Part shown: positions 1 through 15,220 of the stretch, piece by piece
Layout: each line of letters begins with the position of its first letter
Numbering within the stretch: position 1 is the first letter of the stretch
Made by a program: the position numbers and the translations under genes
From: Aequorivita capsosiphonis DSM 23843
GTDB lineage: Bacteria > Bacteroidota > Bacteroidia > Flavobacteriales > Flavobacteriaceae
Assembly (NCBI RefSeq): GCF_000429125.1
Contig: NZ_AUBG01000001.1
Span: 1 to 64,000, forward strand
DNA length: 64,000 bases
Direction: 5' to 3'
Notes under the pieces: model-generated
Databases searched by the model: none
What the model was told of the DNA's origin: nothing
What the model saw: the letters and a program-made list of their open reading frames with translations, nothing else

Positions 1-93
1 TGGGATTCCTTAGCCTAAAAACCGTGTTTTCATTTTGGCAAATAAGCCTGAGAATTATTAGCTAACTTTTGGTTCTTCTAACTGGCCCACAAC
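1..93. other. Left-truncated ORF-less cassette, duplicate of the 9149-9521 cassette
   Basis: Positions 1-95 are identical to 9429-9523 by direct reading, including the cassette end GGCCCACAAC and the first two bases of the next palindrome. After that the sequences diverge into different palindromes. No ORF is present. The rest of this cassette lies left of the window. It contains one arm (16-31) of the 16-bp inverted repeat seen complete in the two other ORF-less cassettes. Confidence 0.8.
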
Positions 94-212
94 GTCTCGA
101 ATAAACGCAGTAGCGGGATCCACGCACTGTCTTTTTGATTTATACCAGACTTTAAATATATAAAATTACTTTTGGTTTTTTCTCTTGGCCGCTATTGTGT
201 TTATGCATTGTT
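91..212. repeat. attC-like palindrome S1
   Basis: Runs from AAC (91-93) to GTT (210-212). The outer arms ATAAACGCAGTAGCGG (about 101-116) and the complement of CCGCTATTGTGTTTAT pair at 14 of 16 positions. Both exceptions are G-T wobbles on the plus strand. The middle is AT-rich and has no gene. It is the most divergent member of the site set. Confidence 0.75.
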
Positions 213-599
213 GTGGGAGGGTTTCCCCAAGCTTTGGCCATCCCGGACAGAAACCGGCCATCTGATCTTGCCGAAAACACGGTTTTTATTGTCAGTAAAT
301 AAACACCGGCTAAAATTGAGCGTACTGATTGGCTCAGCAGGCCTTTGCAGATACAAGACTGCCTTTCTCGGAATCGCAAAACGCCCAGCCTTGATCCAGT
401 AAATGTGCACCTGCCAAAAAAATATCCGTTCCGCTAAGAGTTTACGGTCCATTCTAGAGATAAAACTACCACAGTGGGTGTTTTGTGATTCCACAGCCTA
501 AAAACCGTGTTTTCATTTTTGCTGATATTCCTGAACCTTTTCCGAGTTGTTTTTGAGTATTGTTAACCCAACTTTTACCTCATTAAACTCTCCCACAAC
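210..599. other. ORF-less cassette (alpha)
   Basis: Bounded by GTTGTGGGAG (210-219) and CTCCCACAAC (590-599), a perfect 10-bp complementary pair. Short ORFs in it are mutually overlapping on both strands and recall no family. It contains a 16-bp inverted repeat, GAAAACACGGTTTTTA (273-288) and its complement (499-514), about 210 bp apart. It also has stretches similar to the cassette at 9149-9521, for example around 379-412. It could encode a structured RNA or a promoter, or be a defective cassette; the sequence does not decide. Confidence 0.7.
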
Positions 600-843
600 G
601 TAATTGTGTATGCTTAGTTGCGTGCAAAATAGTTAAAATTTTCGGTTGAAGCAATAAGCTATTAAAGCTATTTTAACCTTATAAATATTCGGGTTTGCGA
701 AACCTTTTCGGTTTTCAGAACCGATAAGGTTTTGCAAACCGGAATGGAAAAATAACATTTCAAAATGGCTTTAATAGCGACCCAGCAAAAAATCACAGAC
801 CTCGGAAAAAAGCCTTTAGCAGCAATTAAGTATACACGCTGTT
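597..843. repeat. attC-like palindrome S2 (family A, long)
   Basis: From AAC (597-599) to GTT (841-843), 247 bp. Outer arms GTGTATGCTTAGTTGC and GCAATTAAGTATACAC pair with two G-T wobbles on the plus strand. The interior holds further nested inverted segments around the TTTGCGAAACC / GGTTTTGCAAACC motifs. It is closely similar along its length to S4 (3126-3353). Confidence 0.85.
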
Positions 844-858
844 GTACGTAGGCTCTTC

Positions 859-1044
859 CTATTCAGTTGGTTGTTTTAAATAGTCCCAGTTTTCATATTT
901 TGACATTTTAAGCCTCTTTTGAGTTGGAATTTTAGATGCAGAAACCGATATTTTGAAGATTTTTATCTTCTTTTGAGCGAGTATTGGGGTTGCTGATTTC
1001 AGGATTTTGGAGCATTTGGGCTTGATTTGTAGATTAAAAACCAA
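859..1044 (-). CDS. Doubtful short ORF in the 841-1356 cassette
   Basis: A 61-codon reading frame opening with TTG. The last 15 residues (MSKYENWDYLKQPTE) look protein-like, but the upstream part is low-complexity and lysine-rich. No family is recognised. It is the only minus-strand frame of any length in the cassette bounded by GTTGTACGTA (841-850) and TACGTACAAC (1347-1356). The remaining roughly 300 bp is AT-rich with no gene. It may be the decayed 3' end of a former cassette gene, or the whole cassette may be noncoding. Confidence 0.25.
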   Translation of the reverse strand: MVFNLQIKPKCSKILKSATPILAQKKIKIFKISVSASKIPTQKRLKMSKYENWDYLKQPTE

Positions 1045-1353
1045 AAAGCTTGAGTTTAAATATTTTTTGGAAGAATCATTGGTGATCTAAATTTTCGATT
1101 AAATCAACGAAGTTGGGAAATCCGTTCCGAGTTTGTTTTGGTGCATTTCTGATTTTTCTTTTTTAGATGATTTTTCTCGTTTAAATTCAATCCAAAATTT
1201 TGTCGAAAGTTTTATTTTCGATCTACAAAACGTTTTTTGGTTTTCCTTTTTTTAAGATCTTTTTGCGTAATCAATTCAGCGTTGTTTTTTTGTTGATAGA
1301 ATTAAAAATCTTGAATGAACCTGCAATTTTGTTGGTCTGGTCAGCTTACGTAC

Positions 1354-1538
1354 AACGTCTCTGTATATGGCTCGTAGCGTGCAAATTAGCAATAACTTTT
1401 CGGTTGAGCACGAGCCGAATTTTTTAATTTTCTTATTACCTTTTTTATCAATAAGCCAAATTAAAAAATTTGGCGGACTTGTAAATATGCCTTAACTTCG
1501 ATTAAGCAACTAATTAGCTATGAGCTATATACGTTGTT
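1354..1538. repeat. attC-like palindrome S3 (family B)
   Basis: AAC (1354-1356) to GTT (1536-1538). Outer arms GTATATGGCTCGTAGC and GCTATGAGCTATATAC pair throughout, with two G-T wobbles on the plus strand. An inner stem pairs CCGAATTTTTTAATTT with AAATTAAAAAATTTGG. Nearly identical to S8 (7212-7397). Confidence 0.88.
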
Positions 1539-1553
1539 GGTGGTAGTTTTTAT

Positions 1554-3062
1554 TTATTGTTTTATATTTTCTAAAGTTACTCCTAACTTTTTCAAAACTC
1601 TTATTCCATTTATATTCTCTGGATTTAGTTTTATTGATTTTTTATAATTTTCTATCGCTTTTTTCTTTTCGCCTTGTTTTAAAAGAGCTTCAGCATAGCT
1701 ATCGAAAGCATTAAAGGAATTAGGGAATGCTTCAACGCTTATTTCAAATACAGCAATTGCAAAGTCATTTTTGTTTTTACTTAGATAATAATAACCTAAA
1801 TCGATTAATTGTCCCTCAGAAAAATTGTATTTATCTTGTTGGTTATTTTTTAATTCGAAGTATAATTTCTTAATATCACCAACACCTTTGGTGTCTATTA
1901 TTTGCTTTATTTTATTAGCTATGGAAGGTAGGACGATGCAACTGTCCAACGATTCTTTATCAGTTAACCAATGTGACCATTCACAAATTACTTGGCTAAA
2001 AACATTACTTCCAGCTCCACCGTTAGTTAACATTACAAAACCATCATTTGTGTCAGGGTTAATCATAAATAAAGCTTGCCAGCCTGTGTTAGCGCCTCCG
2101 TGTCCGTATATAGTCATATTGGTTGACATTAATTCCTTTTGATAGCCTAAGCCATAACTATCATTTGAAACAGGAACTGGTGTCATCATCAGTTCTAAGC
2201 TATGAGTTGATAAAATATTTTGAGTATATTTTTTGTTTTTATAGAGACTAGCTAGTGCAAATTTTGAAAAATCCTCAATAGTTGTATGTAAACCTGCAGC
2301 TGCTTTGGCTGTAAACAGTTCAAAGTCTATGACTTCACCAAAATTGTTATGCTCTAGTGATGACGCTTTTAATATGTTTTCATCTATGGTATAACTACTA
2401 TTGGTCATTCCTAGAGGATTTAATATTTCGGCTTGCATATAATCTTCAAATTTTTGCTTGGTAACTTCTTCAATGATTAGTTGCAGAATAGTAAACCCAC
2501 CTCCTGAATATTTCCATTTTGTTCCTGGCTCCATAATGATTTCCACACGTCCGGGACCATTATTTTTACCATCTAAAGATTCTTCAATAGTGGGTAAATT
2601 ATCTTTTGGAGACCAACCTGGATATCCGTGTAATGATAATCCAGCTGTATGACTTAAGAGTCTTCTAATCGTCACTTTATCTGAATCAAATTCAGATTTT
2701 GGCAAATGCCATCTAGTAAGATATTTTTCGGCTGGAGCATCAAGTTCAATTTTACCTTCTTGCACTAGTTTCATTACTCCCCAAGCAGCAACAGTTTTGG
2801 AAATAGACCCAATATTAAAACCTGTCTTAGTTGTTACCTTAGTTCCTTTAACAATATCTGAATAGCCATAACCTTTTAATAATATTATTTCCCCATTTTC
2901 TATAATTGCAATTCCTGCTCCAGGAACAGAAAAATCATTTAATAATTTAGGAATTTGATTGTCTAGTTTATTTACAAATTGGTCAATTTCTTTTGTTCCT
3001 TTTTGCGCACTGAGAGTAAAAGAAAGAAGAAGAATTAAAAGAGATATTAATCGTATAATCAT
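1554..3062 (-). CDS. Exported serine hydrolase (beta-lactamase/class C fold) with C-terminal TPR
   Basis: 502 residues. An N-terminal signal peptide (about 1-20, ending LSAQ) predicts export to the periplasm or cell surface. The beta-lactamase-related serine hydrolase domain spans about 25-350. It has SISK (86-89) supplying the nucleophilic Ser and Lys, a YSG motif (185-187) and HGG (321-323). The C-terminal part (about 400-490) carries TPR-like helices, including a repeat ending with KAIENYKKSIKLNPEN. Family members hydrolyse peptides, esters or D-amino-acid peptides, so the substrate is not predictable. It is the only full-size gene in its cassette (1536-3128) and the longest cargo in the array. 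A promoter within the cassette is likely, but no clear box was seen. Confidence 0.85.
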   Translation of the reverse strand: MIIRLISLLILLLSFTLSAQKGTKEIDQFVNKLDNQIPKLLNDFSVPGAGIAIIENGEIILLKGYGYSDIVKGTKVTTKTGFNIGSISKTVAAWGVMKLVQEGKIELDAPAEKYLTRWHLPKSEFDSDKVTIRRLLSHTAGLSLHGYPGWSPKDNLPTIEESLDGKNNGPGRVEIIMEPGTKWKYSGGGFTILQLIIEEVTKQKFEDYMQAEILNPLGMTNSSYTIDENILKASSLEHNNFGEVIDFELFTAKAAAGLHTTIEDFSKFALASLYKNKKYTQNILSTHSLELMMTPVPVSNDSYGLGYQKELMSTNMTIYGHGGANTGWQALFMINPDTNDGFVMLTNGGAGSNVFSQVICEWSHWLTDKESLDSCIVLPSIANKIKQIIDTKGVGDIKKLYFELKNNQQDKYNFSEGQLIDLGYYYLSKNKNDFAIAVFEISVEAFPNSFNAFDSYAEALLKQGEKKKAIENYKKSIKLNPENINGIRVLKKLGVTLENIKQ

Positions 3063-3125
3063 TTTAAGTTTTTTTATGAATATTGGGGTTTAATGTTAAA
3101 CGAATGGCTGTTTTGAATTACCACC

Positions 3126-3353
3126 AACGTAATTGTGTATGGTTAGTTGCGTTAAAAATAGCCATAATTTTCGGTTAAGGCAACAAGCTATTAAAGCGAT
3201 TTTAACCTTATAAGTGTTTGGGTTTGCAAAACCTTTTTGGTTTTGCGAACCGAAATGAAAAAATAATATCCCTAAATGGCTTTAATAGCGACCCAGCAAA
3301 AAAGCACAGATCCCGGGAAAAGCTTTAAGCAGCAATTAACTATACACGCTGTT
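3126..3353. repeat. attC-like palindrome S4 (family A, long)
   Basis: AAC (3126-3128) to GTT (3351-3353), 228 bp. Outer arms GTGTATGGTTAGTTGC and GCAATTAACTATACAC pair with two G-T wobbles on the plus strand. It shares long blocks with S2, for example ATGGCTTTAATAGCGACCCA. It separates the serine hydrolase and glyoxalase-fold cassettes. Confidence 0.88.
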
Positions 3354-3387
3354 GTGCGCAGGCTTTTCCATTGTCATTTTCTTTTTG

Positions 3388-3804
3388 TTAATTATTAGTA
3401 TTATAAAACACATTAAATTTGTGCCCATCTGGGTCAGAAAATACTAAAACGTAAAACCCGTTTTCCTCATACATTTCTTTTTTATCTTTTCGAGGATCAA
3501 AAACTATTTTTCCGCCAGCATTTTCAACTTCGTTAATCCATTCGTTCACTTCCGTTTTACTTTCTGCCGAAAGAGTAAACATAATTTCGTTTCCTTTATT
3601 CAAATCAGAAATTTCGCCTTCAAGACTTGATTTTAATTCCTCATTCTTAAAAAAATGGATAATGAAATCACCATCGCCAACTAAAAAACTTATTAATTCA
3701 CTTGTTGGTTTTCCATTGATTCTAAATCCTAAATTTTCGTAGAATTCTTGAGTTTTTTTGACATTGTTTACTCCTAAATTTGCCCAGATTTTTTTTGGTT
3801 TCAT
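3388..3804 (-). CDS. VOC/glyoxalase-fold protein
   Basis: 138 residues. A single vicinal-oxygen-chelate (glyoxalase/bleomycin-resistance) domain fills the protein. It opens with the strand IWANLGVNNVKKTQEFYENL and closes with VLVFSDPDGHKFNVFY, where the family keeps a metal-ligand Glu or a structural residue. No signal peptide, so cytosolic. This is the single gene of the cassette bounded at 3351-3360 and 3888-3897. Members include glyoxalases, dioxygenases and drug-binding resistance proteins; the sequence does not discriminate. VOC proteins are frequent integron cargo, which fits the setting. Confidence 0.8.
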   Translation of the reverse strand: MKPKKIWANLGVNNVKKTQEFYENLGFRINGKPTSELISFLVGDGDFIIHFFKNEELKSSLEGEISDLNKGNEIMFTLSAESKTEVNEWINEVENAGGKIVFDPRKDKKEMYEENGFYVLVFSDPDGHKFNVFYNTNN

Positions 3805-3894
3805 TTTATATTTTTCTTCTTGGTAATTTATGCCAAAAGTTTGATTTTATAATCGACCTTTGGATAGAAACGATCCTTTTTTCAGCTTGCGCAC

Positions 3895-4018
3895 AACGTG
3901 TTTGTATAAGATTAGTTGCGTGTTTTGAGCAACTAATTTAGCAAATAAAAACCAGATAGAAAGTCTGCGAGGACTTTCGTAAATAGGCTATTACCAGCAA
4001 TTAATTTTATACGGTGTT
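3895..4018. repeat. attC-like palindrome S5 (family C)
   Basis: AAC (3895-3897) to GTT (4016-4018), 124 bp. Arms GTATAAGATTAGTTGC and GCAATTAATTTTATAC pair with two G-T wobbles on the plus strand. The centre has a small hairpin, GAAAGTC / GACTTTC. Similar to S7. Confidence 0.88.
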
Positions 4019-4030
4019 AGCAACTGGGCT

Positions 4031-4570
4031 TTATACTCTTACAGTAAAGTAATATTCTGCTATTCTCAACCCAACAAATAAAATAAAAGCAATAAATAGT
4101 TTTAAAAATAATTTCAATTTCGGTTGTTCAATTTTTTTCGACTTTAATAGCATTTTAATACTTCTTCTGAGTTTTTCTTTATTTAACCATAATATTATTA
4201 AAATCAATATTTGATATAATAATGCTGCCCTCAATGCCCCAAGGTGGACACCAAAATAAATATCTTGAAATATGATGTTGACCAGTATAGTTGAAGTAAA
4301 TAAGCACCCAATGATTCGTGTTTTTTTTATTAGAATAAATAACCCCCCAATAATCTCAAAAATTCCTAGTGTTATCGCAAATAATTTTGAGTAACCATAA
4401 AACGCCCACATTAACTCCATTCCGGTCATTTCTGATACCGTTTTATCAATTTCTATTGCACTCTCGAATTGCAATAATTTAGTGCCTCCGTAAACAAACA
4501 TTGCAAAAACTACAAGCCAACTAATGGCATTTTCAAATATTTCAACCTTATCTTTTTTGCCAAAATTCAT
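4031..4570 (-). CDS. DoxX-like membrane protein
   Basis: 179 residues with about four hydrophobic segments (near 14-30, 55-80, 85-105, 110-130) and a fifth near the C-terminus (155-170). The GGTKLL and EIIGGLFIL patterns resemble the DoxX-like/DoxD family of inner-membrane proteins, whose function is poorly defined. It starts 2 bp after the stop of the upstream DUF998 gene and is the last gene of a three-gene cassette (4016-5872) with a Crp-like regulator first. Translational coupling with the DUF998 gene is likely. Confidence 0.7.
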   Translation of the reverse strand: MNFGKKDKVEIFENAISWLVVFAMFVYGGTKLLQFESAIEIDKTVSEMTGMELMWAFYGYSKLFAITLGIFEIIGGLFILIKKTRIIGCLFTSTILVNIIFQDIYFGVHLGALRAALLYQILILIILWLNKEKLRRSIKMLLKSKKIEQPKLKLFLKLFIAFILFVGLRIAEYYFTVRV

Positions 4571-4572
4571 TT

Positions 4573-5199
4573 TTAATTTAATTTATTAGGGATTGGATTT
4601 TCTTTCGGTAGTCTATAAAGCTTAACTGCTGTATAAGCTATCCAAGCAAAGACAAAGAAAAAATTAACCCGTTGACCCACAGATGGGATATTGGGAAAAA
4701 ACCAAGACCAAGTTCCCGAGGCAATAGTTAACCATACGAAAATCAGTAACGTAACATTGCTACTTTTCCAGTAATTATTGTCTTTCATCAATTTTGAATA
4801 AGTAAAAGTACCGATTAGAAAAGATAGATAACTTCCGTAGCTTCCAATCATATGAAAGATAGTCGTTATTGATGAACGATTATCTAAATCTGCAGGAAAA
4901 ACACCAGAAAACATAAGAAAGAAGCCAGTCAAAAAAATACCGATCAAAGGTAATTTGGATGATTTTTTTTCCGCCATTGATTTATACAGTCCAATAGAGT
5001 ACATAGAAATTAGAATACCTGGTATTATATAACCAAGGATATTCCAAGTCCACTTGTTCGGTGCGTCAAGAGAACCGAGTTCGCTCACTAGTTTATATAA
5101 AAAGCTATATTCTGGTCTTTGATTTGCCATTATGAAATAGGTAGCTCCAAATAAAATAGGTGAGATTAGACCTAGGATTGCATAGTTTCGATTCGTCAT
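4573..5199 (-). CDS. DUF998-type integral membrane protein
   Basis: 208 residues with six predicted transmembrane segments (near 7-27, 52-72, 82-100, 112-132, 147-167, 172-192). It opens with NYAILGLISPILFGATYFIM and carries the conserved stretch FPADLDNRSS. This pattern matches the DUF998 family of unknown function. It lies 68 bp downstream of the Crp-like gene and 2 bp upstream of the DoxX-like gene, so the three are probably one transcript. Confidence 0.72.
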   Translation of the reverse strand: MTNRNYAILGLISPILFGATYFIMANQRPEYSFLYKLVSELGSLDAPNKWTWNILGYIIPGILISMYSIGLYKSMAEKKSSKLPLIGIFLTGFFLMFSGVFPADLDNRSSITTIFHMIGSYGSYLSFLIGTFTYSKLMKDNNYWKSSNVTLLIFVWLTIASGTWSWFFPNIPSVGQRVNFFFVFAWIAYTAVKLYRLPKENPIPNKLN

Positions 5200-5267
5200 T
5201 TTTTTTTGTTGTTAAGTATTTGGCATACAAAAGTAATGACTTATCTCTCTATTGATTTTGACTTAAA

Positions 5268-5867
5268 TCAAAAAGTGCTTTTTCTTGCCCTAACTCTACT
5301 CAATGTTTCTTGAGTCATTCCTAAATGAGAGGCTAGCATTCCTAAAGGGACTCTTTGTAATTTGTTTTTTGAGGTTTTTTCAAAGAATTGATAACGTTCA
5401 CTAGCAGAATTAAACTGAAGTGAAATGATACGTTCCGATTGTTCCAAAAAATATTTAGAAATCAACATTCTTCCAAATCGTTCCATTTCAGGAAAATCTT
5501 GAAAGCAGTTTTCAAGGTCGGTTATAGAAATTTTAATAAGTTCTGTTTCTTCTAAAGTTTGAATATGGAAAAGATCTGAGATATTTTGAAGAAAGCTATA
5601 AATGGATGTTATCCATTCATTTTCTGCAGAAAAACTATCTGTAATTTCTTTATCTCCTTTTTTGTAGTAAAGTCTCGTAAGTCCTTTGTTTATAAAATAA
5701 GTATTCGAACAAGTTCTATGAGGTTTATGAAGAAAATGACCTTTAGGAAAGGTTTCTGTTTTACAAATTGAAATGAGTCGGCATTTTAGCTCGTTTGATA
5801 CTGGAATGAAATTCGTAATATGATTTATTAAATTTTCGATTTTGTCGATTGTTTTTTTGCCTTGTTG
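5268..5867 (-). CDS. Crp/Fnr-type regulator lacking an ATG start (5' end cut at the cassette boundary)
   Basis: A continuous minus-strand frame of 199 codons runs from the stop at 5268 back to a TAG inside the cassette R box (5868-5870). It has the architecture of a Bacteroidota Crp-like protein. The cyclic-nucleotide-type beta-roll comes first, with the segment FLHKPHRTCSNTYFINKGLT. A helix-turn-helix follows at the end, GMLASHLGMTQETLSRVR. The only in-frame ATG (5484-5486) is inside the dimerisation helix and would leave 72 residues. Near-full length without ATG suggests loss of the start when the cassette formed, or use of a rare ATT/ATC start. It is the first gene of the cassette and may control the two membrane genes behind it. 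Confidence 0.65.
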   Translation of the reverse strand, partial: QQGKKTIDKIENLINHITNFIPVSNELKCRLISICKTETFPKGHFLHKPHRTCSNTYFINKGLTRLYYKKGDKEITDSFSAENEWITSIYSFLQNISDLFHIQTLEETELIKISITDLENCFQDFPEMERFGRMLISKYFLEQSERIISLQFNSASERYQFFEKTSKNKLQRVPLGMLASHLGMTQETLSRVRARKSTF

Positions 5868-5869
5868 CT

Positions 5870-5994
5870 AACGTTTATGTGTATGAGCTGTGGCGTGAAT
5901 TAAGCACGGAACAATCCAAACAGGTACTTGCCCGAGGAAAATCCGCAGGATTTTCCAGATGAGCGAGGACAAGCCATAGCTTATACACGGTGTT
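5870..5994. repeat. attC-like palindrome S6 (family D)
   Basis: AAC (5870-5872) to GTT (5992-5994), 125 bp. Arms GTGTATGAGCTGTGGC and GCCATAGCTTATACAC pair with two G-T wobbles on the plus strand. A central hairpin pairs GAAAATCC with GGATTTTC. Similar to S11. Confidence 0.9.
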
Positions 5995-6488
5995 AGCACA
6001 CGGTTTTTTTCTTTCCGCTGTTGTTATTTTTTTCACGTCAGAGTAAAGTCCGACGCAATGTTTTTTAAAAGTCCAATTTAATAATTTCCGCTTAAATTCC
6101 GTTACGGTTTTCTGCATTCAGTTCCGTCGCAATATTTTTCCGCCAGATTTGGTTCGGTTGAGAAGCACGGACTTTTCGGTTTTGCACTTAAACAGCAAAA
6201 AAAAATCCGATTCAGTTCCGTTTTTTCCGTCAGAGTTGATTTCGGCGCAATGTTTTGACTCCCGAAACTTCGGGATTGCTTTTCAGCCGAAACTTTGTTC
6301 AGGCAAAGGTTTTTCCAGTTTTGTAAAGAACTTTCGGGTTGAAATTTCCATTGGCAAATCCGTTTGAGTGATAATTTCGGCGCAATGGTTTTTCAGTTTC
6401 GATTTGTTTTTCCAGTTTCAGCTCTTAAAAATCAAAAAATTTCGATGGATTTTCCGCTTTTTCTTGGTCTGTTCAACTGTGTGCTAAC
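5992..6488. other. ORF-less, repeat-containing cassette (zeta)
   Basis: Bounded by GTTAGCACAC (5992-6001) and GTGTGCTAAC (6479-6488). No convincing coding frame on either strand; the 72- and 80-codon frames are compositionally odd and overlap the flanking palindrome or each other. It contains degenerate internal repeats built on TCCG(T/A)C...GCAATG: near 6045-6062, near 6120-6135, 6224-6254 and 6364-6390 (TTTCGGCGCAATG twice exactly). It could be a structured RNA, a promoter cassette or a degenerated gene. Confidence 0.65.
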
Positions 6489-6610
6489 GGTCTAGTGTAT
6501 GATTTCGTTGCGTGTTTAAGCACTAAAGTTAGCAAACAAATCACAGATAGAAAATTCCAGCGGAATTTTCGTAAGTAGGCTCTAACTAGCAATGAATTAT
6601 ACACATTGTT
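6486..6610. repeat. attC-like palindrome S7 (family C)
   Basis: AAC (6486-6488) to GTT (6608-6610). Arms GTGTATGATTTCGTTGC and GCAATGAATTATACAC pair with one bulged base and two G-T wobbles on the plus strand. A central hairpin pairs GAAAATTCC with GGAATTTTC. Shares the CAGATAGAAA and GTAAGTAGGCT type blocks with S5. Confidence 0.88.
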
Positions 6611-6618
6611 GTAGCACG

Positions 6619-7182
6619 TTATTTTTTAATTTTATAAAGTTCAATCGCCTTTAAATATTTAATTCCGCCACCTTTAGTTTGGTCGTTTAAAAATCCATTC
6701 AATTCAGGATAATTTTCCGCAATCCAATTTACAAGTTCATCTCTGTTTTGAATAAATTCCTTAACGTTAAACGAGGCAGATGTCCTGTTGATATTCTTTA
6801 TTTTATTATTCTCAAATTGGATAATCTCGTCTGTAATAATAGGTTCGTGATGAAGAAAGAAAATTCGCTTGTCCGTTTTTGAAATTTTAGCTTTTACAAT
6901 TCCATTTTCTTTTTCGATTTTGAGTATTTCGTAAGTCGGTTGGAATACAGAATCCCACTTTACCCATTCAGCGTATTCATTTCCACTATATTTTTGTTCA
7001 AATCCGTCGTCAATGGTCGTAAATCTTTCGGTAATTAATTCAGTTGTTTTTGAAGGGTTTGAATTGTCAATCGCAATGTAGAATTTTTTAGCAATTTCTA
7101 ATTTGTCAGATTCCTTTTCAGGATTTTTACAGGAAATAATTCCGATTGCTAAAAAGAATAGAAAAACTACGATTTTGTTCAT
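6619..7182 (-). CDS. Putative lipoprotein, NTF2/SnoaL-like
   Basis: 187 residues. The N-terminus MNKIVVFLFFLAIGIISC is a lipoprotein signal with the lipid-modified Cys at 18. The mature part begins with a helix and the pattern AKKFYIAIDNSNPSKTTELI, then beta-rich segments. This resembles NTF2-like/SnoaL lipoproteins of Bacteroidota, in which a small cone-shaped fold binds unknown ligands. It is the only gene of the cassette bounded by 6608-6617 and 7205-7214. The NTF2 assignment is from pattern only. Confidence 0.6.
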   Translation of the reverse strand: MNKIVVFLFFLAIGIISCKNPEKESDKLEIAKKFYIAIDNSNPSKTTELITERFTTIDDGFEQKYSGNEYAEWVKWDSVFQPTYEILKIEKENGIVKAKISKTDKRIFFLHHEPIITDEIIQFENNKIKNINRTSASFNVKEFIQNRDELVNWIAENYPELNGFLNDQTKGGGIKYLKAIELYKIKK

Positions 7183-7211
7183 TCGTATGTTGGTTGGTTT
7201 TAATGTGCTAC

Positions 7212-7397
7212 AACGGATTTGTATATGGCTCGTAGCGTGTAAATTAGCGATTATTTTCGGTTAAGCACGAGCCGAATTTTTTAATTTTCTTATTACCTTT
7301 TCTTTTCAATAAGCCAAATTAAAAAATTTGGCGGACTTCGCAAATATGCCGAAACTTTGATTAAGCAACTAATTAGCTATGAGCTATATACGTTGTT
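7212..7397. repeat. attC-like palindrome S8 (family B)
   Basis: AAC (7212-7214) to GTT (7395-7397), 186 bp. Arms GTATATGGCTCGTAGC and GCTATGAGCTATATAC pair with two G-T wobbles on the plus strand. The inner CCGAATTTTTTAATTT / AAATTAAAAAATTTGG stem is the same as in S3. The two differ by few substitutions over the whole site. Confidence 0.9.
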
Positions 7398-7408
7398 GCC
7401 ACACGTAT

Positions 7409-7681
7409 TTATTCAGGCCAAACTGACCATAAAAATAGAGTAACAATAATTAATTCCGTTATGTTTAAGGCTATTTTATTTTTAATAATCAGCGATAAAA
7501 TAAAATCAACCAATATTCCAAATAAGCCTAAACCAATTCCTACTGTCATTGCAATCAATCCATAACCAAATGGGTCATTTACAGATTTAAAGTCAAAAAT
7601 GATTATTGTAAGACACAACAAAATTGATAGAATTGAAAAAATAAATAAAACTGAAATTTTCTTTCGTAAAAAATCTTTCAT
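7409..7681 (-). CDS. Small three-helix membrane protein
   Basis: 90 residues with three hydrophobic segments (about 10-29, 38-60, 68-87), ending LFLWSVWPE. No family recognised. It lies 21 bp downstream of the lipoprotein gene 7703-8074 in the same cassette (7395-8086), so the two are probably co-expressed. The R box begins just 12 bp after its stop, so the cassette is tightly packed. Confidence 0.6.
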   Translation of the reverse strand: MKDFLRKKISVLFIFSILSILLCLTIIIFDFKSVNDPFGYGLIAMTVGIGLGLFGILVDFILSLIIKNKIALNITELIIVTLFLWSVWPE

Positions 7682-7702
7682 AGATATTGTTAATCAGTCA
7701 AT

Positions 7703-8074
7703 TTAGTAAATCGGCGCATCAAATTTTACAATGATTGTATCATTTTCCACAATAAAATCAACCCAATGGTCAAGCGAACTTCCGTTTGTATAATATCCGC
7801 CACCACTTTTTCCATTTTGACCATTCTTTCTGTCAAAAGTTAGCGAGTATGAACCATCAGATTTATTCTTGCTCATTGATAAAAATTCTCTAACAGACTT
7901 ATTTGGTTCTATGCTATCAATATTTATGGTCTTAACTTTTTCACTCGTTGTAAATTCAATATTCGATATAGTTTCGCTTGAATTGTTTTCGATATGAACT
8001 TCTATTCCGTCTTTTTTATAGAAAAAACAAGAATTTAAAGTCAGAATTAAAATCAATGCAAGTAGTTTTTTCAT
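7703..8074 (-). CDS. Small putative lipoprotein
   Basis: 123 residues. The signal MKKLLALILILTLNSC places the lipidated Cys at 16. The mature domain (about 25-120) is beta-rich, with an IEVHIENNSSETISNIEF-type strand and the glycine-rich stretch GQNGKSGGGYYTNGSS. No family recognised. It is the first gene of a two-gene cassette; its ATG lies 3 bp inside the cassette-end pair GTGTGGCAAC (8077-8086). Little space is left for a promoter, so transcription may come from the adjacent palindrome or from upstream cassettes. Confidence 0.6.
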   Translation of the reverse strand: MKKLLALILILTLNSCFFYKKDGIEVHIENNSSETISNIEFTTSEKVKTINIDSIEPNKSVREFLSMSKNKSDGSYSLTFDRKNGQNGKSGGGYYTNGSSLDHWVDFIVENDTIIVKFDAPIY

Positions 8075-8083
8075 ATGTGTGGC

Positions 8084-8208
8084 AACGGTTTAGTATATGA
8101 AAAGTGCGTATTTGTGTCAGAGGATTTTCGGAACGAAAATCGGATGAAAGCAAGTACGCACTTTCAATTGGTTTAGCACTAAACTACGCATTTTTTATAT
8201 ACAGTGTT
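8084..8208. repeat. attC-like palindrome S9 (family E)
   Basis: AAC (8084-8086) to GTT (8206-8208), 125 bp. Arms GTATATGAAAAGTGCGTA and TACGCATTTTTTATATAC pair with two G-T wobbles on the plus strand. The centre contains the hairpin GATTTTCG / CGAAAATC. No close relative elsewhere in the window. Confidence 0.87.
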
Positions 8209-8222
8209 AGCACCAGTTTTTC

Positions 8223-8960
8223 TTATATTTCAAATAAAATCTTTGTTTTGTGTGGAATTTCCAACAATTTTTCTTTTTGAATGACTATAATATTCTCTTT
8301 AATATAATTTATAAGTTCGCTTTCAAGTCTTTTGTCCTTTAAATTCTGTAATATTTTTACTTTTTTAATAGAAAGGTCTTTATTAATAGTCAATTCGAAA
8401 ATAATTGGACGTATAGCTGTTACAGTACTTTCATTACTATATATAAATCTTCTAGAATTAAAATGTTCTTCTGGTTGAATCATTGCAGAAATATTAAACT
8501 CGTTTTGTGGAACTATTTTTTCATCCTTTAAAAAATCCAACAATTCCAATTCAGATTTTATTCTCTCATCATATCGTTCTTTAGCATTTGGATATTTAGT
8601 GGAATTAAATTTTTTGTCAATTTGTTTTGCTCCAGAACAATATCCAAAACTTAAATTCCCGTTAGTGTCTTTTTTTGCGAATATTAACCAAATCGAATTT
8701 TCCCAAACATTAAAACCACAACTACCATAAGACATTGTTTTTATCTTTGTAGTTGTTTTTCCTTTATAGATTTCAATTATTTCTATTTCAACGTTGTCAT
8801 AGATTGTATCAATCTCGTTTGGTGTGACTTTTAATATTTTAGCTGATGCTACAAAATCAGATTGGGCGATTCTTTGCGTAATATTTGGGTTATTACACAT
8901 ACAAGCAAATATTAGATTTGTTGAGAACAAGATTAATATTGTTGTAAGAATGTTTTTCAT
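8223..8960 (-). CDS. Secreted TIMP/NTR-like protein
   Basis: 245 residues. A signal sequence (about 1-19) is followed directly by CMCNNP, so the mature protein would begin with Cys-x-Cys. The segment RIAQSDFVASAKILKV and the later SYGSCGFNVWE and GYCSG cysteine motifs match the netrin/TIMP-like (NTR) domain found in secreted bacterial proteins. The C-terminal 80 residues resemble the TonB-C-like extension seen in some of these (ELTINKDLSIKKVKIL). Eukaryotic relatives inhibit metalloproteases, but the bacterial function is unknown. It is the single gene of cassette 8206-8974. Confidence 0.65.
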   Translation of the reverse strand: MKNILTTILILFSTNLIFACMCNNPNITQRIAQSDFVASAKILKVTPNEIDTIYDNVEIEIIEIYKGKTTTKIKTMSYGSCGFNVWENSIWLIFAKKDTNGNLSFGYCSGAKQIDKKFNSTKYPNAKERYDERIKSELELLDFLKDEKIVPQNEFNISAMIQPEEHFNSRRFIYSNESTVTAIRPIIFELTINKDLSIKKVKILQNLKDKRLESELINYIKENIIVIQKEKLLEIPHKTKILFEI

Positions 8961-8971
8961 AAATTGGTGCT

Positions 8972-9151
8972 AACGGTCTGGCTATGAGCAGTGCGCCAAA
9001 AACGAACTGATTTTCGGAATAAGCACGAAGCCAAAACTTTATTTTTTACTTAAATTCTCACTTTACGCCAAAATGAAGTTTTGGCGACTTCGTAAATATA
9101 CACCTGATTTTGGATTAAACACGAACCCAGCATTGCTTATAGCCTTTTGTT
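8972..9151. repeat. attC-like palindrome S10 (family F)
   Basis: AAC (8972-8974) to GTT (9149-9151), 180 bp. Arms GGCTATGAGCAGTGC and GCATTGCTTATAGCC pair with two G-T wobbles on the plus strand. An inner stem pairs GCCAAAACTT with AAGTTTTGGC. Confidence 0.85.
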
Positions 9152-9521
9152 GTGGGCCGGTTTCCCTTTTTCACAGGCTTTTGCTGATTAGAACTTGCCT
9201 TTGGAGCTTGCCGAAAACACGGTTTTTAATTTTCACAAATAAATACCTACCAAAAAAATCTTCATCCACTTGAGTCATCTACTATCCTAACCAAATAAGA
9301 AACTACGATCGTCGGAATCTCAAAATGCCCAGCTCTGATTTTGTAAATAAACATTTGCCAAAAAAATCTTCATCCAGAGAATCATTAAACCATCCTTCGT
9401 AAATAAACAATTACTTAAGATGGCATTTTGGGATTCCTTAGCCTAAAAACCGTGTTTTCATTTTGGCAAATAAGCCTGAGAATTATTAGCTAACTTTTGG
9501 TTCTTCTAACTGGCCCACAAC
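9149..9521. other. ORF-less cassette (kappa)
   Basis: Bounded by GTTGTGGGCC (9149-9158) and GGCCCACAAC (9512-9521). No convincing ORF. It holds the same 16-bp inverted repeat as cassette alpha (9213-9228 and 9444-9459) and an internal direct repeat, CCAAAAAAATCTTCATCCA, at about 9249-9267 and 9359-9377. Its right 93 bp are duplicated exactly at 1-93. The family therefore has at least three members in this window and is preserved without coding capacity. Confidence 0.75.
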
Positions 9522-9642
9522 GTTTATGTATATGAGCTGTGGCGTGTGTTGGCACGAACCTCTCCAAATAAAAACTGGCTTTGGGAAATCCGCAGGATTT
9601 TCCAAGTAGGCACAGACCAAGCCATAGCTTATATACTGTGTT
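9519..9642. repeat. attC-like palindrome S11 (family D)
   Basis: AAC (9519-9521) to GTT (9640-9642), 124 bp. Arms GTATATGAGCTGTGGC and GCCATAGCTTATATAC pair with two G-T wobbles on the plus strand. The central hairpin GGAAATCC / GGATTTTCC resembles that of S6. This is the recombinase-proximal palindrome, next to the first cassette gene. Confidence 0.9.
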
Positions 9643-9654
9643 GTACCCAGTTTT

Positions 9655-10125
9655 TTATTCACTCAATTTTTGTTTTCTTTCCGCAATCCGTTCTTCAAAT
9701 TTTGGATTCAATTCAATTCCGTTTATAAATTCAGGTTCAAAACTTCCAATCGTTATAAACTCAAAGTCTATAAAGAAGAAGTGTTTTAATCCGTTTTGTT
9801 TTAAGATCAGATCTCGGTTATTTTCCGCCAATCTTTGAATTTCTAAAGTGTCCGAAATAGGTTTGTCAAATTGGTAAATCCGCAATTGGTTTGTGTTCAA
9901 TTCGAGTATTTCTTTCAAACCGTTCAAGTCAGTTTGGACATCCATTTCCATCTGTCGAACATTTAAATTCTTGAGTTCAATTCCGCTTTGTGTTTTTAAG
10001 TCCGTTTGCCACCATTCGATTATTTCATTCGGAAGGAATTTATGGATGAAAATTGAATTCAGTTTTTTATCTAAAAGTCCCCAAATTTCTTCGTTAGAAT
10101 TTATTTCAAATGTTAGTTCGGTCAT
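9655..10125 (-). CDS. Hypothetical cytosolic protein, first cassette gene
   Basis: 156 residues, acidic, with no signal peptide or membrane segment. N-terminal half MTELTFEINSNEEIWGLLDK; a hydrophobic strand FFFIDFEFITIGSF near the C-terminus; then a charged helix. No family recognised. Its ATG is 20 bp from the cassette edge (TGGGTACAAC, 10136-10145) and it is the most recombinase-proximal, and so on the integron model the most recently inserted, cassette. It would be the first gene read by transcription coming through the recombinase gene. Confidence 0.6.
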   Translation of the reverse strand: MTELTFEINSNEEIWGLLDKKLNSIFIHKFLPNEIIEWWQTDLKTQSGIELKNLNVRQMEMDVQTDLNGLKEILELNTNQLRIYQFDKPISDTLEIQRLAENNRDLILKQNGLKHFFFIDFEFITIGSFEPEFINGIELNPKFEERIAERKQKLSE

Positions 10126-10135
10126 TTTTTCAAAT

Positions 10136-10196
10136 TGGGTACAACATGGGTATATACAAACATGGAGTGACGTATATATCGCACTTGTACACCATG
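10136..10196 (-). other. attI-like junction between recombinase and first cassette
   Basis: The last cassette box TGGGTACAAC (10136-10145) is followed by ATG and GGTATATAC, which resembles the short-spacer half (AAC-ANN-GTATATA) of the palindromes. No full palindrome follows. Only about 50 bp separate it from the recombinase stop codon. GTATATA-type sequences recur at 10150-10157 and 10172-10179. Inference: this is the primary attachment site, placed at the 3' end of the recombinase gene rather than upstream of it as in classical integrons. Confidence 0.55.
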
Positions 10197-11333
10197 CTAT
10201 TTCGGTTTGTTCTTTCCAAATTTAGTTGATTCATACAACGTATCCAAAGGACTTGTTAAAGTTTTGTTATTTATTCCTAATACACGCGTGTAAACCTCCG
10301 TAGTTTTTGTGCTGGCGTGGCCCATCGAACTTTGAATGTAACGTATGTTTACTCCGTGTTCCATAAGATGGGTGGCGTAACTATGGCGCAGCGTATGCGG
10401 TGTGCTCCACGGGTTGCTGTTGGTACCCTTTACAGCTTGGCGATACATACGTTGTATGCTCTGTGTAGTATATTGTCCACCCTCCTGCCCCTCAAATAAC
10501 CAATAGCTTGGTTTATATTCTCGATAGTAATTTCGCAATAAATCCAAAAGCAAAGGGCTAAGCGTACAATGTCTGTCTTTTTTGCCTTTACTATCCTTTA
10601 TAAAAAGATACCCATCATCGCTACGAACGTCAGCTATTCGCAAACGCACCACTTCCCCCACACGCAAGCCCGCTGCATAGAGCACATGGAGTATTGCTTT
10701 GTGCTTTATATTGCTTGGATAATTTAAAATGGCAGCTACTTCTTCTTTACTCAGCACATCTGGAAGGTCTTTACTTTTCTTAGGCCTAGTGACGTTATAA
10801 TATTCCCGCGGCATTCCTAAAGTATGCTCGTAATAGCACTTTATTGCATTTATCAATTGGTTTTGCTTTTGGTCGCTTATTTTATACTTGCTAATTAAAT
10901 GATATACGAAACCCTCTATCTGCTCCTTGGTTATTTCGCGATAGGCAACAGATTCAAAATATTGAAAAAATTGAGTCAGATTGCTTTGGTAATTGCGAAT
11001 GGTGGCTTGACTAAAACCTTTTAAAATCATTTTTTGATGGTTGCAATCCAACTCAGCCTGTATGCTTTCCGAAATTGCTATTTGTGGGATCACCAGAGGA
11101 CCTTGGGTGGCCTGTTTTATTAGCTTATCGCCAAACAGCAATTGAATTTTTTTAATATTCTCTGCAGTGTTTACAATACTCCAAAGCTTTTGGTGGTAAT
11201 GATAAAAGGAGCTGTCAAGCTTTTTAAAAGCCGCGCGTTCGCGCTCCATTTTATACGGAATAAAAAACTTTATTCTCCCCGCCTGGACCTGTGGGATATA
11301 CATTATAATATGAGTTTTACTTTTCCGTTCCAT
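10197..11333 (-). CDS. Tyrosine recombinase of the cassette array (integron-integrase-like)
   Basis: 378 residues. The N-terminal arm (1-85) has no recognised domain. A SAM-like core-binding domain lies at about 90-180 (TIRNYQSNLTQFFQYFESV). The catalytic domain is at 190-360, with Arg224 (AAGLRVGE), Lys251/252, His313 and Arg316 (HTLRHS), His339 and nucleophile Tyr348 (EVYTRV). All catalytic residues are present. The roughly 20-residue insertion typical of IntI between the Lys and His boxes is not apparent. It reads toward the array and ends 51 bp from the last AAC box. Inference: it inserts and excises the cassettes. Alternatively it belongs to the mobilisable element to its right. Confidence 0.85.
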   Translation of the reverse strand: MERKSKTHIIMYIPQVQAGRIKFFIPYKMERERAAFKKLDSSFYHYHQKLWSIVNTAENIKKIQLLFGDKLIKQATQGPLVIPQIAISESIQAELDCNHQKMILKGFSQATIRNYQSNLTQFFQYFESVAYREITKEQIEGFVYHLISKYKISDQKQNQLINAIKCYYEHTLGMPREYYNVTRPKKSKDLPDVLSKEEVAAILNYPSNIKHKAILHVLYAAGLRVGEVVRLRIADVRSDDGYLFIKDSKGKKDRHCTLSPLLLDLLRNYYREYKPSYWLFEGQEGGQYTTQSIQRMYRQAVKGTNSNPWSTPHTLRHSYATHLMEHGVNIRYIQSSMGHASTKTTEVYTRVLGINNKTLTSPLDTLYESTKFGKNKPK

Positions 11334-11854: not shown

Positions 11855-13435
11855 CTATTTAAAAATAGATCTCACCTCCACATAAACCCGTTCAAAATTA
11901 TCCTCCAAATCTGCTTTAGAATACTCTTTCACTCCCTTGGGCAAACTTCTTTGAATCTTCTGCAACTGAAACTGGACCTTTTTATCCTTCCCATCCGCAT
12001 ACGTAATAAACTCTCCCTGCTTCAACCGGAAAAACACACCCGCTCGAATTTTAGGAATCTCCTTCTCCCCTGTTGTTATTCGTGTATCAAAATCGAGGTT
12101 ATGACCCCGACTTATACTTTTGGTTGGATCTTTAACAATCTCAAAAAAGCGTTCGTAATATTTAGCAGTGTCCGGGTCATTGACTTTTCCAAAGAATTGA
12201 TAGGAAAGGTTGCTCAAAATCGCTTTGCTAGCCTTGTCACCGTACATCATATCGTTCTGTATCTTGTCCTGCATCACATATATAGTTGATATATCATAAC
12301 TCCGCAAAGTGGCAGGAATACGGTGCATATTTAGCAATCGAATTGTTGGAGCTTCTTCCATCATCAAAAAGGAAGGAAGCGAATTTCGCACACTCATCTG
12401 TTTGGTAATAGTGTGGATTATTGTAGCAATTATTGGGGAATAGGCTGTTTCAAACTTTGGATTGTTCGCTACCGAAATCACCGCTGGATTATCCTGATTA
12501 TTTATATTAAGTGGCACTTCATCTGCGGAAAGTGCCATAAATATGCGTTGCGTGCTAATCCGCTTTAAGGCATTTGCCAAGGTGCTCTTTACCGCTGCCG
12601 TTTGTCTTTCGGAATCCTTTCCACTTATAAAGGCATCCGCCATTGCTCGGGAAGTGGTATTTGAACTTAAAAAAGCAACCAAACTTTCAGTGTCGAGATA
12701 CTGGTAGATAGCAATAAGATGTGGCAATGTACAATACTGTGGATATGAAGTTCGGAGTTTCCAGATAAGTCCACCGATCAGCCCCTCTGCCGCATCATTA
12801 AAGAATTTGGTACTTCCCGTAGTGCCAGCTTCTCGTTGTTCCAAAAGGTTTTCAATAAGAACCCTGGAAACTTCATTTACGCTTTCCTCATTTTCAAGGT
12901 ATCTCGGGGCGATGGGGTTCACCCGATGAATTATTTTATCGAAAGAGATGATATAAAAGGGAATATCAGAATCTTTAAAAAGTGGGTAGGCCATTTCCGT
13001 AATTTCAAAATCCTTGTAGTCGTGAATAACCCCACAGAACGAATGTTTTTTGAAATGTTTTAGAAACCCATACACGACACTTTCCGTTTTTCCACTACCT
13101 GCAGCTCCGATTATCGAAGCGCCCCTCCTAATATTTTGGATTTTGAATTCCCCTCGATTTAATTTAAAATGGACTTCATATTTGGAACCAGCTTTAGATG
13201 AATTATCATCTTTTTGAAAAAACACATAAAGTATCGTATTTATCAATAGTATCGGACATCCAAAATAAAGTAAGGAACTTGACAAACTAATGGAAAAGGA
13301 TATATAATAAAGCATCCAGGCAATGAAAAATAAGTTTATCCAAAAGGCATATTTCATCAAGCGAAACAGACCATAAAAAATTAAGCCGGCTGTTGTAATA
13401 ACAGAAATAATTATTATTGGATTATTAAAGTCCAT
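11855..13435 (-). CDS. mobC: MobC / TraG-VirD4-like coupling ATPase
   Basis: 526 residues. Hydrophobic segments in the first 75 residues anchor it in the inner membrane. A Walker A motif GAAGSGKT (110-117) and the later segment SFLMMEEAPTIRLLNMHR (Walker B type) mark a TraG/TraD/VirD4 coupling protein. It would bring the relaxase-DNA complex to a type IV secretion channel. It starts 10 bp after the relaxase stop and is the third gene of the BfmA-MobB-MobC set. It is shorter than full conjugation coupling proteins, as usual for mobilisable elements that borrow a transfer channel. Confidence 0.85.
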   Translation of the reverse strand: MDFNNPIIIISVITTAGLIFYGLFRLMKYAFWINLFFIAWMLYYISFSISLSSSLLYFGCPILLINTILYVFFQKDDNSSKAGSKYEVHFKLNRGEFKIQNIRRGASIIGAAGSGKTESVVYGFLKHFKKHSFCGVIHDYKDFEITEMAYPLFKDSDIPFYIISFDKIIHRVNPIAPRYLENEESVNEVSRVLIENLLEQREAGTTGSTKFFNDAAEGLIGGLIWKLRTSYPQYCTLPHLIAIYQYLDTESLVAFLSSNTTSRAMADAFISGKDSERQTAAVKSTLANALKRISTQRIFMALSADEVPLNINNQDNPAVISVANNPKFETAYSPIIATIIHTITKQMSVRNSLPSFLMMEEAPTIRLLNMHRIPATLRSYDISTIYVMQDKIQNDMMYGDKASKAILSNLSYQFFGKVNDPDTAKYYERFFEIVKDPTKSISRGHNLDFDTRITTGEKEIPKIRAGVFFRLKQGEFITYADGKDKKVQFQLQKIQRSLPKGVKEYSKADLEDNFERVYVEVRSIFK

Positions 13436-13445
13436 AGTTTATAAA

Positions 13446-14474
13446 TTAGATCCCAATCGAACTGGATTTAATTGCCACCTCCACTCCCCGCCTCAATCTA
13501 TTGAATACTTTCAATGCCAATTGTGCTGAGTTTGTTGGAATGCTTTGAATAGGCATTCCAGATTCCCGCATCAATTTAAAGGCAATGGCCTTTTCATTCG
13601 TTGGTAATTGTAGCAACGCAGAAAAATAGAAATTCGAATTTTTTATAAATTTCTTTCTGGCTCGGTAGGTTTCCACAAAATTGCGTTGGTAACCAAAAGT
13701 CCTGTCGAAAGTTTGTTCTGCTTTAGTAAAAAATTGGTCTCGGTCAAATCCTCTCTTTACTAACTTACCGTTCATCATTACCTCAGATGATTTGTATTTG
13801 CTACCAGGGGAAAGACTGAACGCGTTGGAAGCATCCTTCCTACTAACAATAATATGGATATGGGTCTGGTTGCCTTCCTTTTTCATTCCCCGAACAATAC
13901 GCTCACCATTTTGCTGATGGGGAGCATCCCGTTCCAGTTTCATTATTTCCTTTTCCAGGGTTTTGATACTTCCCTCCTTATCACCTAACTGAATTGTTCT
14001 TATTTCCTTTTTTAATTCCAGTATTTTTGTAGCAAAAGCTTGGTTCTCGCGAATTTTAATGTCCGATCCTTTAAAGGTTCGTTGATGTTCTATTTTCGCA
14101 TAGTATTTAATATCATCAATAGTGATGGGCCTACCGTTTATTTCACGATTGAAACAAGACACATAGTCTTTCATCACTTCCTGGGTGCATTTTTTTAGAT
14201 CCTCACTGTGATTTTGTAAACGTTTCAATTCATATTTAGAAGGGCTGACTGTAATAGAATAAAACTTAGGCTCAATCTTTTTAAGTTTGGCGGTGTTACC
14301 ATCAATTTCGTGCACCACTTCCTTAGCCGATATTCTATCGCCATATTGATTGAAAAAGAATTCTTCATTTTCGAGTTCCAGATCTTGGTTTTCCTTTTCC
14401 AGATAATTCACAAAATCGGAAACACTTTGGGTATAGTTACTCCCCAATTTTTGAGGTGTGATGGTGATATACAT
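13446..14474 (-). CDS. mobB: MobB relaxase (DUF5712 family)
   Basis: 342 residues. The N-terminus MYITITPQKLGSNYTQSVSDF is typical of the Bacteroidota MobB/DUF5712 relaxases. The pattern THIHIIVSR (204-212) provides the metal-binding histidines expected for nicking DNA at oriT. The middle part (145-185) is a charged helix. It lies between the BfmA-like gene (12-bp gap) and the coupling protein. Expected to cut and carry the transferred strand in the cytosol. Confidence 0.85.
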   Translation of the reverse strand: MYITITPQKLGSNYTQSVSDFVNYLEKENQDLELENEEFFFNQYGDRISAKEVVHEIDGNTAKLKKIEPKFYSITVSPSKYELKRLQNHSEDLKKCTQEVMKDYVSCFNREINGRPITIDDIKYYAKIEHQRTFKGSDIKIRENQAFATKILELKKEIRTIQLGDKEGSIKTLEKEIMKLERDAPHQQNGERIVRGMKKEGNQTHIHIIVSRKDASNAFSLSPGSKYKSSEVMMNGKLVKRGFDRDQFFTKAEQTFDRTFGYQRNFVETYRARKKFIKNSNFYFSALLQLPTNEKAIAFKLMRESGMPIQSIPTNSAQLALKVFNRLRRGVEVAIKSSSIGI

Positions 14475-14486
14475 TATTGTTGTTTT

Positions 14487-14873: not shown

Positions 14874-15014
14874 TTTTTCGTGAAATATTTGCTGGTTTTG
14901 TTGGTGCGAGATGCTTTTTCCGTGAAAAAATAGTGTAAACCCGACTTGTCTAAGATATCTCGAAAACTCAAAGCGCTTAAAACCAATGATTTGTAAAGTG
15001 AATTGGAGTTCTAA

Positions 15015-15068
15015 CATCGCGCAGCGTGTTACCCTCTTGCTTCTCCAATTTGTCCGCCCGCGGACAAA
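15015..15068. other. Candidate origin of transfer
   Basis: Directly upstream of the BfmA-like gene. It has an inverted repeat with 9-bp arms, TTTGTCCGC (15049-15057) and GCGGACAAA (15060-15068), 2-bp spacer. It is preceded by GCGCAGCGTGTTACCCTCTT (15019-15038), a GC-rich block unlike the surrounding AT-rich DNA. Position and structure fit an oriT with a relaxosome-binding inverted repeat. The nick site cannot be assigned. Confidence 0.5.
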
Positions 15069-15220
15069 ATTTTAGAACCATTTATAGAAAATTAAGAGTC
15101 TCATTTGAAATTTAGAATTGATCATTAATTTTTGTGAAATTCAATTTGAACAACTTAAATTTTAGTCAAGGAATTATCAATTCATTTGCGGATTGTTCAA
15201 TGAAATATTTTCAAATGGAA

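Follow-up and report, generated by a model that had tools for sequence, protein, structure and literature searches.

A recombinase gene and its tandem units

The stretch analyzed here, hereafter the window, comprises positions 1 to 64,000 of contig C1 (G000:C1:1-64000) of Aequorivita capsosiphonis DSM 23843, whose 4.04 Mb genome is assembled in 26 contigs. On its minus strand, read from right to left, the window carries a tyrosine recombinase gene (10197..11333, 378 amino acids), a short conserved stretch predicted to be an attI site (10143..10199, reaching from the stop codon of that gene to the GTT that opens the first cassette), and a row of 11 units and 11 inverted-repeat sites that continues up to the contig end. 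An earlier note on this DNA had described eleven imperfect palindromes of 120–250 base pairs (bp) within 1..11333, arranged as in an integron; all 11 are present, with 11 units between sites and recombinase. From the recombinase gene outwards, the attC-like sites were located by their inverted repeats and by the unit-end rule described below at 9519..9642, 8972..9151, 8084..8208, 7212..7397, 6486..6610, 5870..5994, 3895..4018, 3126..3353, 1354..1538, 597..843 and 91..212, all on the minus strand; the second has an identical copy at the end of contig C17.

Read in the sense of the cassettes, each unit opens with GTT and seven unit-specific bases and closes with the complement of those seven bases followed by AAC. 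In this genome, all seven arm bases are complementary in 23 of 25 units and six of seven in the other two. At position 11 of the arm, the unit start has A and the unit end has C; on the gene strand the two are mismatched (A·C), whereas their bottom-strand counterparts pair as G·T. Position 12 is complementary between the two ends. As a control for circularity, units were re-picked on the seven arm bases alone with position 11 ignored; in the 61 units obtained from 17 arrays, the present one included, position 11 was A/C and position 12 complementary without exception. Because the unit ends are complementary, a circularized unit would rebuild a complete site as its outer arms meet, which is the logic of an integron.

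Applied to positions 1–10200, the rule returned 11 pairs in a single unbroken chain, compared with 0.6 pairs on average and never more than 2 in 40 dinucleotide shuffles, and the remaining 50 kb yielded a single pair outside any chain. Only this strict form of the rule was kept: loose arms (five of seven bases, no position-11 rule) produced long chance chains on both strands at the flanks of four canonical genes for the integron integrase IntI, where the strict rule found no chain of at least two units in 16 strand scans. The array placed by the earlier note at 1..11333 is indeed there and extends past the contig end, since contig C17 holds 14 further units in an unbroken chain by the same rule (one overlapping spurious pair was dropped before counting). 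Together, window and C17 contain 25 complete units and 24 sites between units. The first 95 bases of C1 are the reversed first 95 bases of C17, and the cassette-like units of the genome, at least 25, likely form one row.

The sites are asymmetric and 122–247 bp long. With DNA parameters, the plus strand, which is the bottom strand for minus-strand cassettes, folds as the more stable hairpin in 21 of the 24 sites, and 17 of the 24 folds leave 5–6 bases unpaired where AAC gives way to the stem, and 3–4 before GTT. The same bias was seen in 54 sites from 27 other loci, where the bottom strand was more stable in 44, with two ties (p 4e-7). The bottom-strand outer stem (L arm) of these 54 sites contains 74 G5'-T3' wobbles against 3 T-G, so that the strand bias is built in by G·T pairs. 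The base following the bottom-strand AAC is G in all 24 own and all 54 other sites, as has also been reported for the majority of known attC sites (PMC2727003). Like the attC sites of integrons, these sites have R'' and R' arms that complement each other and can fold into a hairpin that favors one strand.

The contents of the units, all on the minus strand, are as follows. Unit 1 (9640..10145) holds an open reading frame (ORF) at 9655-10125 (156 amino acids) without a family match, and unit 2 (9149..9521, 373 bp), which has an identical copy at the C17-C1 junction, is without an ATG-start ORF of at least 60 amino acids. Unit 3 (8206..8974) contains an ORF at 8223-8960 (245 amino acids), unit 4 (7395..8086) two, at 7409-7681 and 7703-8074, and unit 5 (6608..7214) one, at 6619-7182 (187 amino acids). 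Unit 6 (5992..6488), without an internal ATG-start ORF of at least 60 amino acids, shares a 261-base stretch at 75% similarity with Aequorivita lipolytica (L073). Unit 7 (4016..5872), one of the two with six of seven arm bases, has ORFs at 4031-4570, 4573-5199 (DUF998) and a short one at 5268-5486; positions 5268-5873 also read as a frame with one in-frame stop, the downstream part of which weakly resembles an FtrB-type regulator (E 0.0065). A glyoxalase-superfamily protein is encoded in unit 8 (3351..3897) at 3388-3804, and a Beta-lactamase-family protein (Pfam PF00144) with a C-terminal TPR in unit 9 (1536..3128) at 1554-3062; the latter scores far under the NCBIfam cut-offs of all 25 families listed. 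Units 10 (841..1356) and 11 (210..599) are without an internal ATG-start ORF of at least 60 amino acids, and unit 11 resembles unit 2 (68% similarity across 278 bases). Stretches similar to this family of units without an obvious gene (210-599, 9149-9521) occur at L079, L085 and L048, two of these genomes being Aequorivita, besides the exact duplicate in the own genome. Over all 25 units, the longest ATG ORF of at least 60 amino acids lies in sense in 15, in antisense in one, and neither in nine; the cassettes are mostly single-gene and in one orientation, as in integrons.

Beside the platform, positions 11855-16105 encode a type IV coupling protein, a DUF5712 protein, presumably relaxase-like, and SSB; given these neighbors, the platform may reside on a mobilizable element. 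A Mutator-family transposase gene (PF00872) lies farther off, at 33573-34769.

The recombinase lineage and its distribution

The recombinase consists of an N-terminal domain (about residues 1-90) and core-binding and catalytic domains (about residues 98-352), with matches to Phage_integrase (128.9 bits) and Phage_int_SAM_4 (44.1 bits). R224, K249, H313, R316, H339 and Y348 are invariant across 20 aligned recombinase sequences. We take these to be the catalytic residues of tyrosine recombinases, by which the gene product would qualify as one. Its best matches in both sequence and structure are archaeal XerA (PDB 5hxy, 4a8e), and the NCBI model XerA_Arch is itself titled site-specific tyrosine recombinase/integron integrase. 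The integron integrase model integrase_gron (TIGR02249) is the second-best NCBIfam match (E 4.8e-54), at 183.8 bits against a curated cut-off of 265, and no protein of the genome scores above the cut-off of that profile. The Xer equivalog cut-offs are likewise not reached (XerC 160.6 versus 335.15, XerD 174 versus 329.6, XerA 196.8 versus 220 bits). No significant match was found for the N-terminal 90 residues in profile and fold searches, the HARP / UvsW / XPB-DRD domain included.

The insertion near patch III that is specific to IntI is absent. The interval corresponding to residues 270-312 measures 42-45 residues in 41 of 41 array-bearing rows, the window recombinase among them, against 84 in 20 of 20 IntI of the phylum (L094 is labelled array-bearing on a single unit, and one of 21 IntI was dropped for length); set against 2a3v, the window recombinase shows a gap at this place. 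At least 71 residues precede the core-binding domain in 40 of the 41 rows, compared with at most 26 in 17 of the 20 IntI, with start codons unchecked. In a tree of 85 out of 86 rows (one short row was dropped), the phylum's IntI form one branch (support 100/99), and all 41 rows labelled array-bearing fall on the other side; the second recombinase of the own genome, L002, carries the label 'neg' in this tree despite units behind its gene. As long Xer branches meet IntI there, the tree cannot tell whether this recombinase family and IntI share an ancestor that used single-stranded sites. On these sequence comparisons, the recombinase belongs to a lineage of its own, one that lacks the IntI insertion and carries an additional N-terminal domain whose role is unproven; this bears out the earlier suggestion that it is not an IntI. 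In the related recombinase of L032 (G033, 437 amino acids), two copies of the N-terminal motif seem recognizable by eye.

By eye, a sequence similar to the predicted attI was found at the same place downstream of the recombinase genes of relatives. The attI-end motif occurs within 160 bp past the stop codon in 59 of 72 testable loci, in 6 of 72 upstream windows, and in 31 of 720 random upstream windows. A conserved, predicted attI thus appears to adjoin the recombinase gene, as an attI adjoins the integrase gene in integrons.

Relatives were scanned with an alignment of 18 sequences, and the best 80 of 162 were retained. The genera among these best 80 include Aequorivita, Gelidibacter, Psychroflexus, Galbibacter, Algibacter, Algoriphagus, Cyclobacterium and Dyadobacter; further relatives come from metagenome-assembled genomes (MAGs) assigned to Saprospiraceae, Chitinophagaceae, Bacteroidales and Chlorobiota. 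For Chlorobiota, the DNA scanned contained no chain. Chains of at least two units lie downstream on the strand of the gene in 27 of the 80 loci; all 27 are among the 47 loci whose downstream DNA extends to 1400 bp or more. None of the 80 loci has a chain upstream, on whichever strand (674 kb scanned), or downstream on the opposite strand (280 kb scanned downstream). The contigs of L041, L082, L095, L111, L118, L131 and L135 end less than 1 kb past the recombinase gene. Because repeated sites are expected to break assemblies, arrays may be undercounted.

Across the class Bacteroidia, the recombinase profile matched 134 of 295 genomes at E 1e-70. The earlier note had held that the phylum is not known for typical integrons; the phylum does have canonical integrons, with IntI above its cut-off in 105 of 395 genomes, but in this sample nearly all of them lie outside the class of the window, where canonical IntI scores above its cut-off in 1 of 295. 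Twenty of the class matches, from 15 genomes with mostly long contigs picked regardless of arrays, were examined; 10 had chains downstream and none upstream (0.8–1.2 kb upstream scanned).

Natural junctions and the start of tet(X3)

Pairs of platforms within one genome differ where the predicted boundary lies. Two such pairs, L100/L101 and L123/L125, are identical through attI and differ from GTT or GTTG onward: in MAG M30B35, two platforms share 190 identical bases, from 60 before the stop codon through attI, that end exactly at GTT and continue into unrelated sequence; a platform pair of Galbibacter orientalis likewise shares 113 identical bases ending at GTTG. In A. capsosiphonis itself, a 550-bp block made up of site 8972-9151 and unit 9149-9521 is repeated without difference at the C17-C1 junction between different neighbors, and the edges of the duplicate fall at AAC, with 0 extra common bases on one side and 2 on the other. 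The earlier note had named the lack of any junction at the GTT/AAC boundaries as an argument against cassette mobility; the junctions observed fall exactly there. The natural junctions at the predicted GTT boundary support mobility of the units.

The genome carries a second platform on the minus strand of contig C5 (L011), where a recombinase gene (6463-7248) whose product is 32% identical to that of the window is followed by units from about 6366 to 521 toward the contig end, four of which pass the end rule. One C5 site is 90.4% identical to window site 9519-9642, although the two recombinases are only 32% identical.

In genome G125, two successive sites (L046, about 6830-8690 and from 9668 on) carry group II introns that look identical by eye, inserted at R'' and antisense to the cassettes, of Rfam family group-II-D1D4-3. 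Insertion at R'' of sites and opposite to the cassettes is described for group IIC-attC introns in the accessible part of PMC7923331. The G125 introns agree with these in place and direction and may differ in class, their Rfam family being group-II-D1D4-3. A Chryseobacterium plasmid likewise has a group II intron (L155, 15677-17419), located in the region that follows the gene for a related recombinase.

A further junction involves the resistance gene tet(X3). On Acinetobacter and soil plasmids (L153, 3600-3840; L154, 6700-6940), a shortened relative of the recombinase is followed by an attI-like site and then by tet(X3), starting GTTATGTGCC. This relative (xerD) is 47.3–47.8% identical over residues 122-366, and its gene lacks the first third. 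In the Flavobacteriaceae genome G041, the same tet(X3) start stands behind a 124-base attC-like site and another unit (L169 = G041:C238): 124 of 124 bases are identical to the plasmid from GTT to the contig end, and 0 bases are common before GTT. Positions 11 and 12 of that unit fit the rule, and the site forms a slightly more stable fold as bottom strand (-16.1) than as top strand (-15.3). A search for tet(X3) in 249 genomes of the family gave 10 matches, nine of them short and weak; only that in G041, 106 bases at a contig start, is a true one. Neither the plasmids nor G041 yielded a 3' end for the tet(X3) cassette; contig C238 holds no recombinase, and the recombinase of that genome is cut at the end of contig C230. 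In the accessible text of earlier studies, the gene beside tet(X3) is described only as xerD, with its spread tied to ISCR2 (PMC7494873, PMC7530245), and one of them states that the tet(X) environments of its Flavobacteriaceae did not align with those of Acinetobacter (PMC7494873). With the same tet(X3) start now seen to follow an attC-like site in G041, an origin can be proposed for the xerD-tet(X3) module that is open to testing.

Relation to integrons and rival explanations

The locus resembles an IntI integron in its tandem cassettes of mostly one orientation, its attI beside the recombinase gene, the boundary at GTT, outer site arms that derive from different cassettes, bottom-strand folding with an unpaired spacer, and the G after the bottom-strand AAC. 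It differs in its recombinase, which lacks the IntI insertion and has an extra N-terminal domain, and in its R arm, which is 12 bp long with an invariant G·T at position 11 and does not keep GTTRRRY. The cassettes lie 3' of the recombinase gene, unlike those of class 1 integrons. With Xer recombinases and archaeal XerA, the enzyme has its catalytic and core-binding domains in common; unlike them, it adjoins an array of sites, has the extra N-terminal domain and scores below the family cut-offs. The xerD-tet(X3)-res-ISVsa3 module of Acinetobacter plasmids is similar in that a shorter relative of the recombinase precedes an attI-like site and tet(X3), and differs in the truncated xerD and the absent cassette 3' end.

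We consider it very probable that the locus is an integron-like platform in which a recombinase without the IntI insertion, a predicted attI and tandem units between inverted-repeat sites act together, the units being predicted mobile cassettes. The integron organization proposed in the earlier note is supported by the grammar of the sites, their orientation, the predicted attI, the recurrence at homologous recombinases in many genera and the natural junctions. Most likely the platform works like an integron but falls outside IntI by score and insertion, and the recombinase, though not a known integron enzyme, likely does the same job. It would bind the folded bottom strand of a site, in which a 12-bp R arm and an L arm of roughly 16 bp, separated by an unpaired spacer of about 5-6 and 3-4 bases, would mimic a normal core site. 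Strand exchange would occur at GTT/AAC, so that units would be excised and inserted as mobile cassettes, and new ones would enter at the attI beside the recombinase gene.

Several observations weigh against this reading. The evidence for mobility consists of natural junctions, and no recombination event was observed; the C17-C1 join, and with it the order of units across it, is deduced from a 95-bp overlap that lies within a longer repeat. The attI is predicted from conservation alone, and its motif is absent in 13 of 72 loci and present upstream in 6 of 72. By the strict rule, 20 of the 47 loci with sufficient downstream DNA have no chain, nor do 10 of the 20 class loci examined, of which three have a single unit starting within about 110 bases past the stop codon and seven were counted as array-less. 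Of these seven, L210 has a formally passing pair and no attI-like sequence, and L223 an attI-like sequence and no unit; three class matches of genome G250 are without an array. Since half of the checked class matches lack chains, the recombinase profile family is wider than the array system. GTTRRRY, the R-box consensus of known attC sites, matches only 3 of the 61 re-picked units; the top strand folds equally well or better in three of the 24 own sites and in ten of the 54 from elsewhere; and the G041 unit before tet(X3) has only five of seven arm bases complementary.

A drifted canonical integron whose IntI lost its insertion could account for the integrase_gron match, for the bottom-strand folding of the sites and for the G retained after AAC, the more so as a recombinase survey finds the insertion incompletely conserved in its integron-like subgroup, according to its accessible text (PMC8138268). 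We nevertheless regard such drift as unlikely: the phylum's IntI form a single branch apart from the array-bearing rows, the residues before the core-binding domain set the two groups apart, GTTRRRY is rarely kept, and the absence of the insertion from all 41 array-bearing rows indicates that its loss is not recent. A Xer system for chromosome-dimer or plasmid resolution with a dif-like site, or a phage or island integrase, is very unlikely, as the recombinase scores under the XerC, XerD and XerA cut-offs, other recombinases, at 24-29% identity, are encoded in the genome (L003, L004), and the neighbor is a multi-site array and not one dif. Bacterial intergenic palindromes of the repetitive extragenic palindromic (REP), miniature inverted-repeat transposable element (MITE) or terminator kind are numerous, and dispersed elements of this sort without cassette function could stand beside a recombinase by chance. 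They would leave unit-specific complementary ends and position 11 without a role, and fit neither the exact junctions at GTT nor the position of the chains, which in the scanned loci follow homologous recombinase genes and never precede them; we give this explanation hardly any credence.

Returning to the integron-like platform, we suggest tentatively, and at rather less than even chances, that it represents a second kind of integron proper to Bacteroidia. A Xer-type recombinase may have come to use folded single-stranded sites on a path separate from that of IntI. In place of the IntI insertion and of extrahelical bases, it may rely on the built-in G·T pairs and on an N-terminal domain of HARP/UvsW/XPB type, with structure-specific DNA binding, to read the hairpin, and this system may first have freed tet(X) as a cassette.

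In the accessible text of published work, recombination by integrons is said to need the insertion, which is described as necessary or essential, and IntegronFinder recognizes IntI by it (PMC9668308, PMC8138268). Reviews list integrons for Bacteroidota (PMC8618304, PMC9668308); since the insertion is not fully conserved in the integron-like subgroup of the survey cited above (PMC8138268), recombinases without it may already be in such lists. IntegronFinder 2.0 reports a complete integron in Salinibacter ruber, where an earlier study had found only In0 in Bacteroidetes (PMC9024848, accessible text). In the literature searched, mainly titles and abstract openings, with most subscription papers and preprints outside its reach, no IntI-free cassette system or array was described.

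If the reading holds, a system with profile matches in 134 of 295 Bacteroidia genomes, and arrays in 10 of the 20 matches checked, would constitute a large pool of mobile genes that has been overlooked, and would offer a natural comparison for the recognition of folded DNA by a tyrosine recombinase. Because the arrangement recurs across Bacteroidia and borders tet(X3), it probably represents an overlooked route of gene spread, that of resistance genes included.

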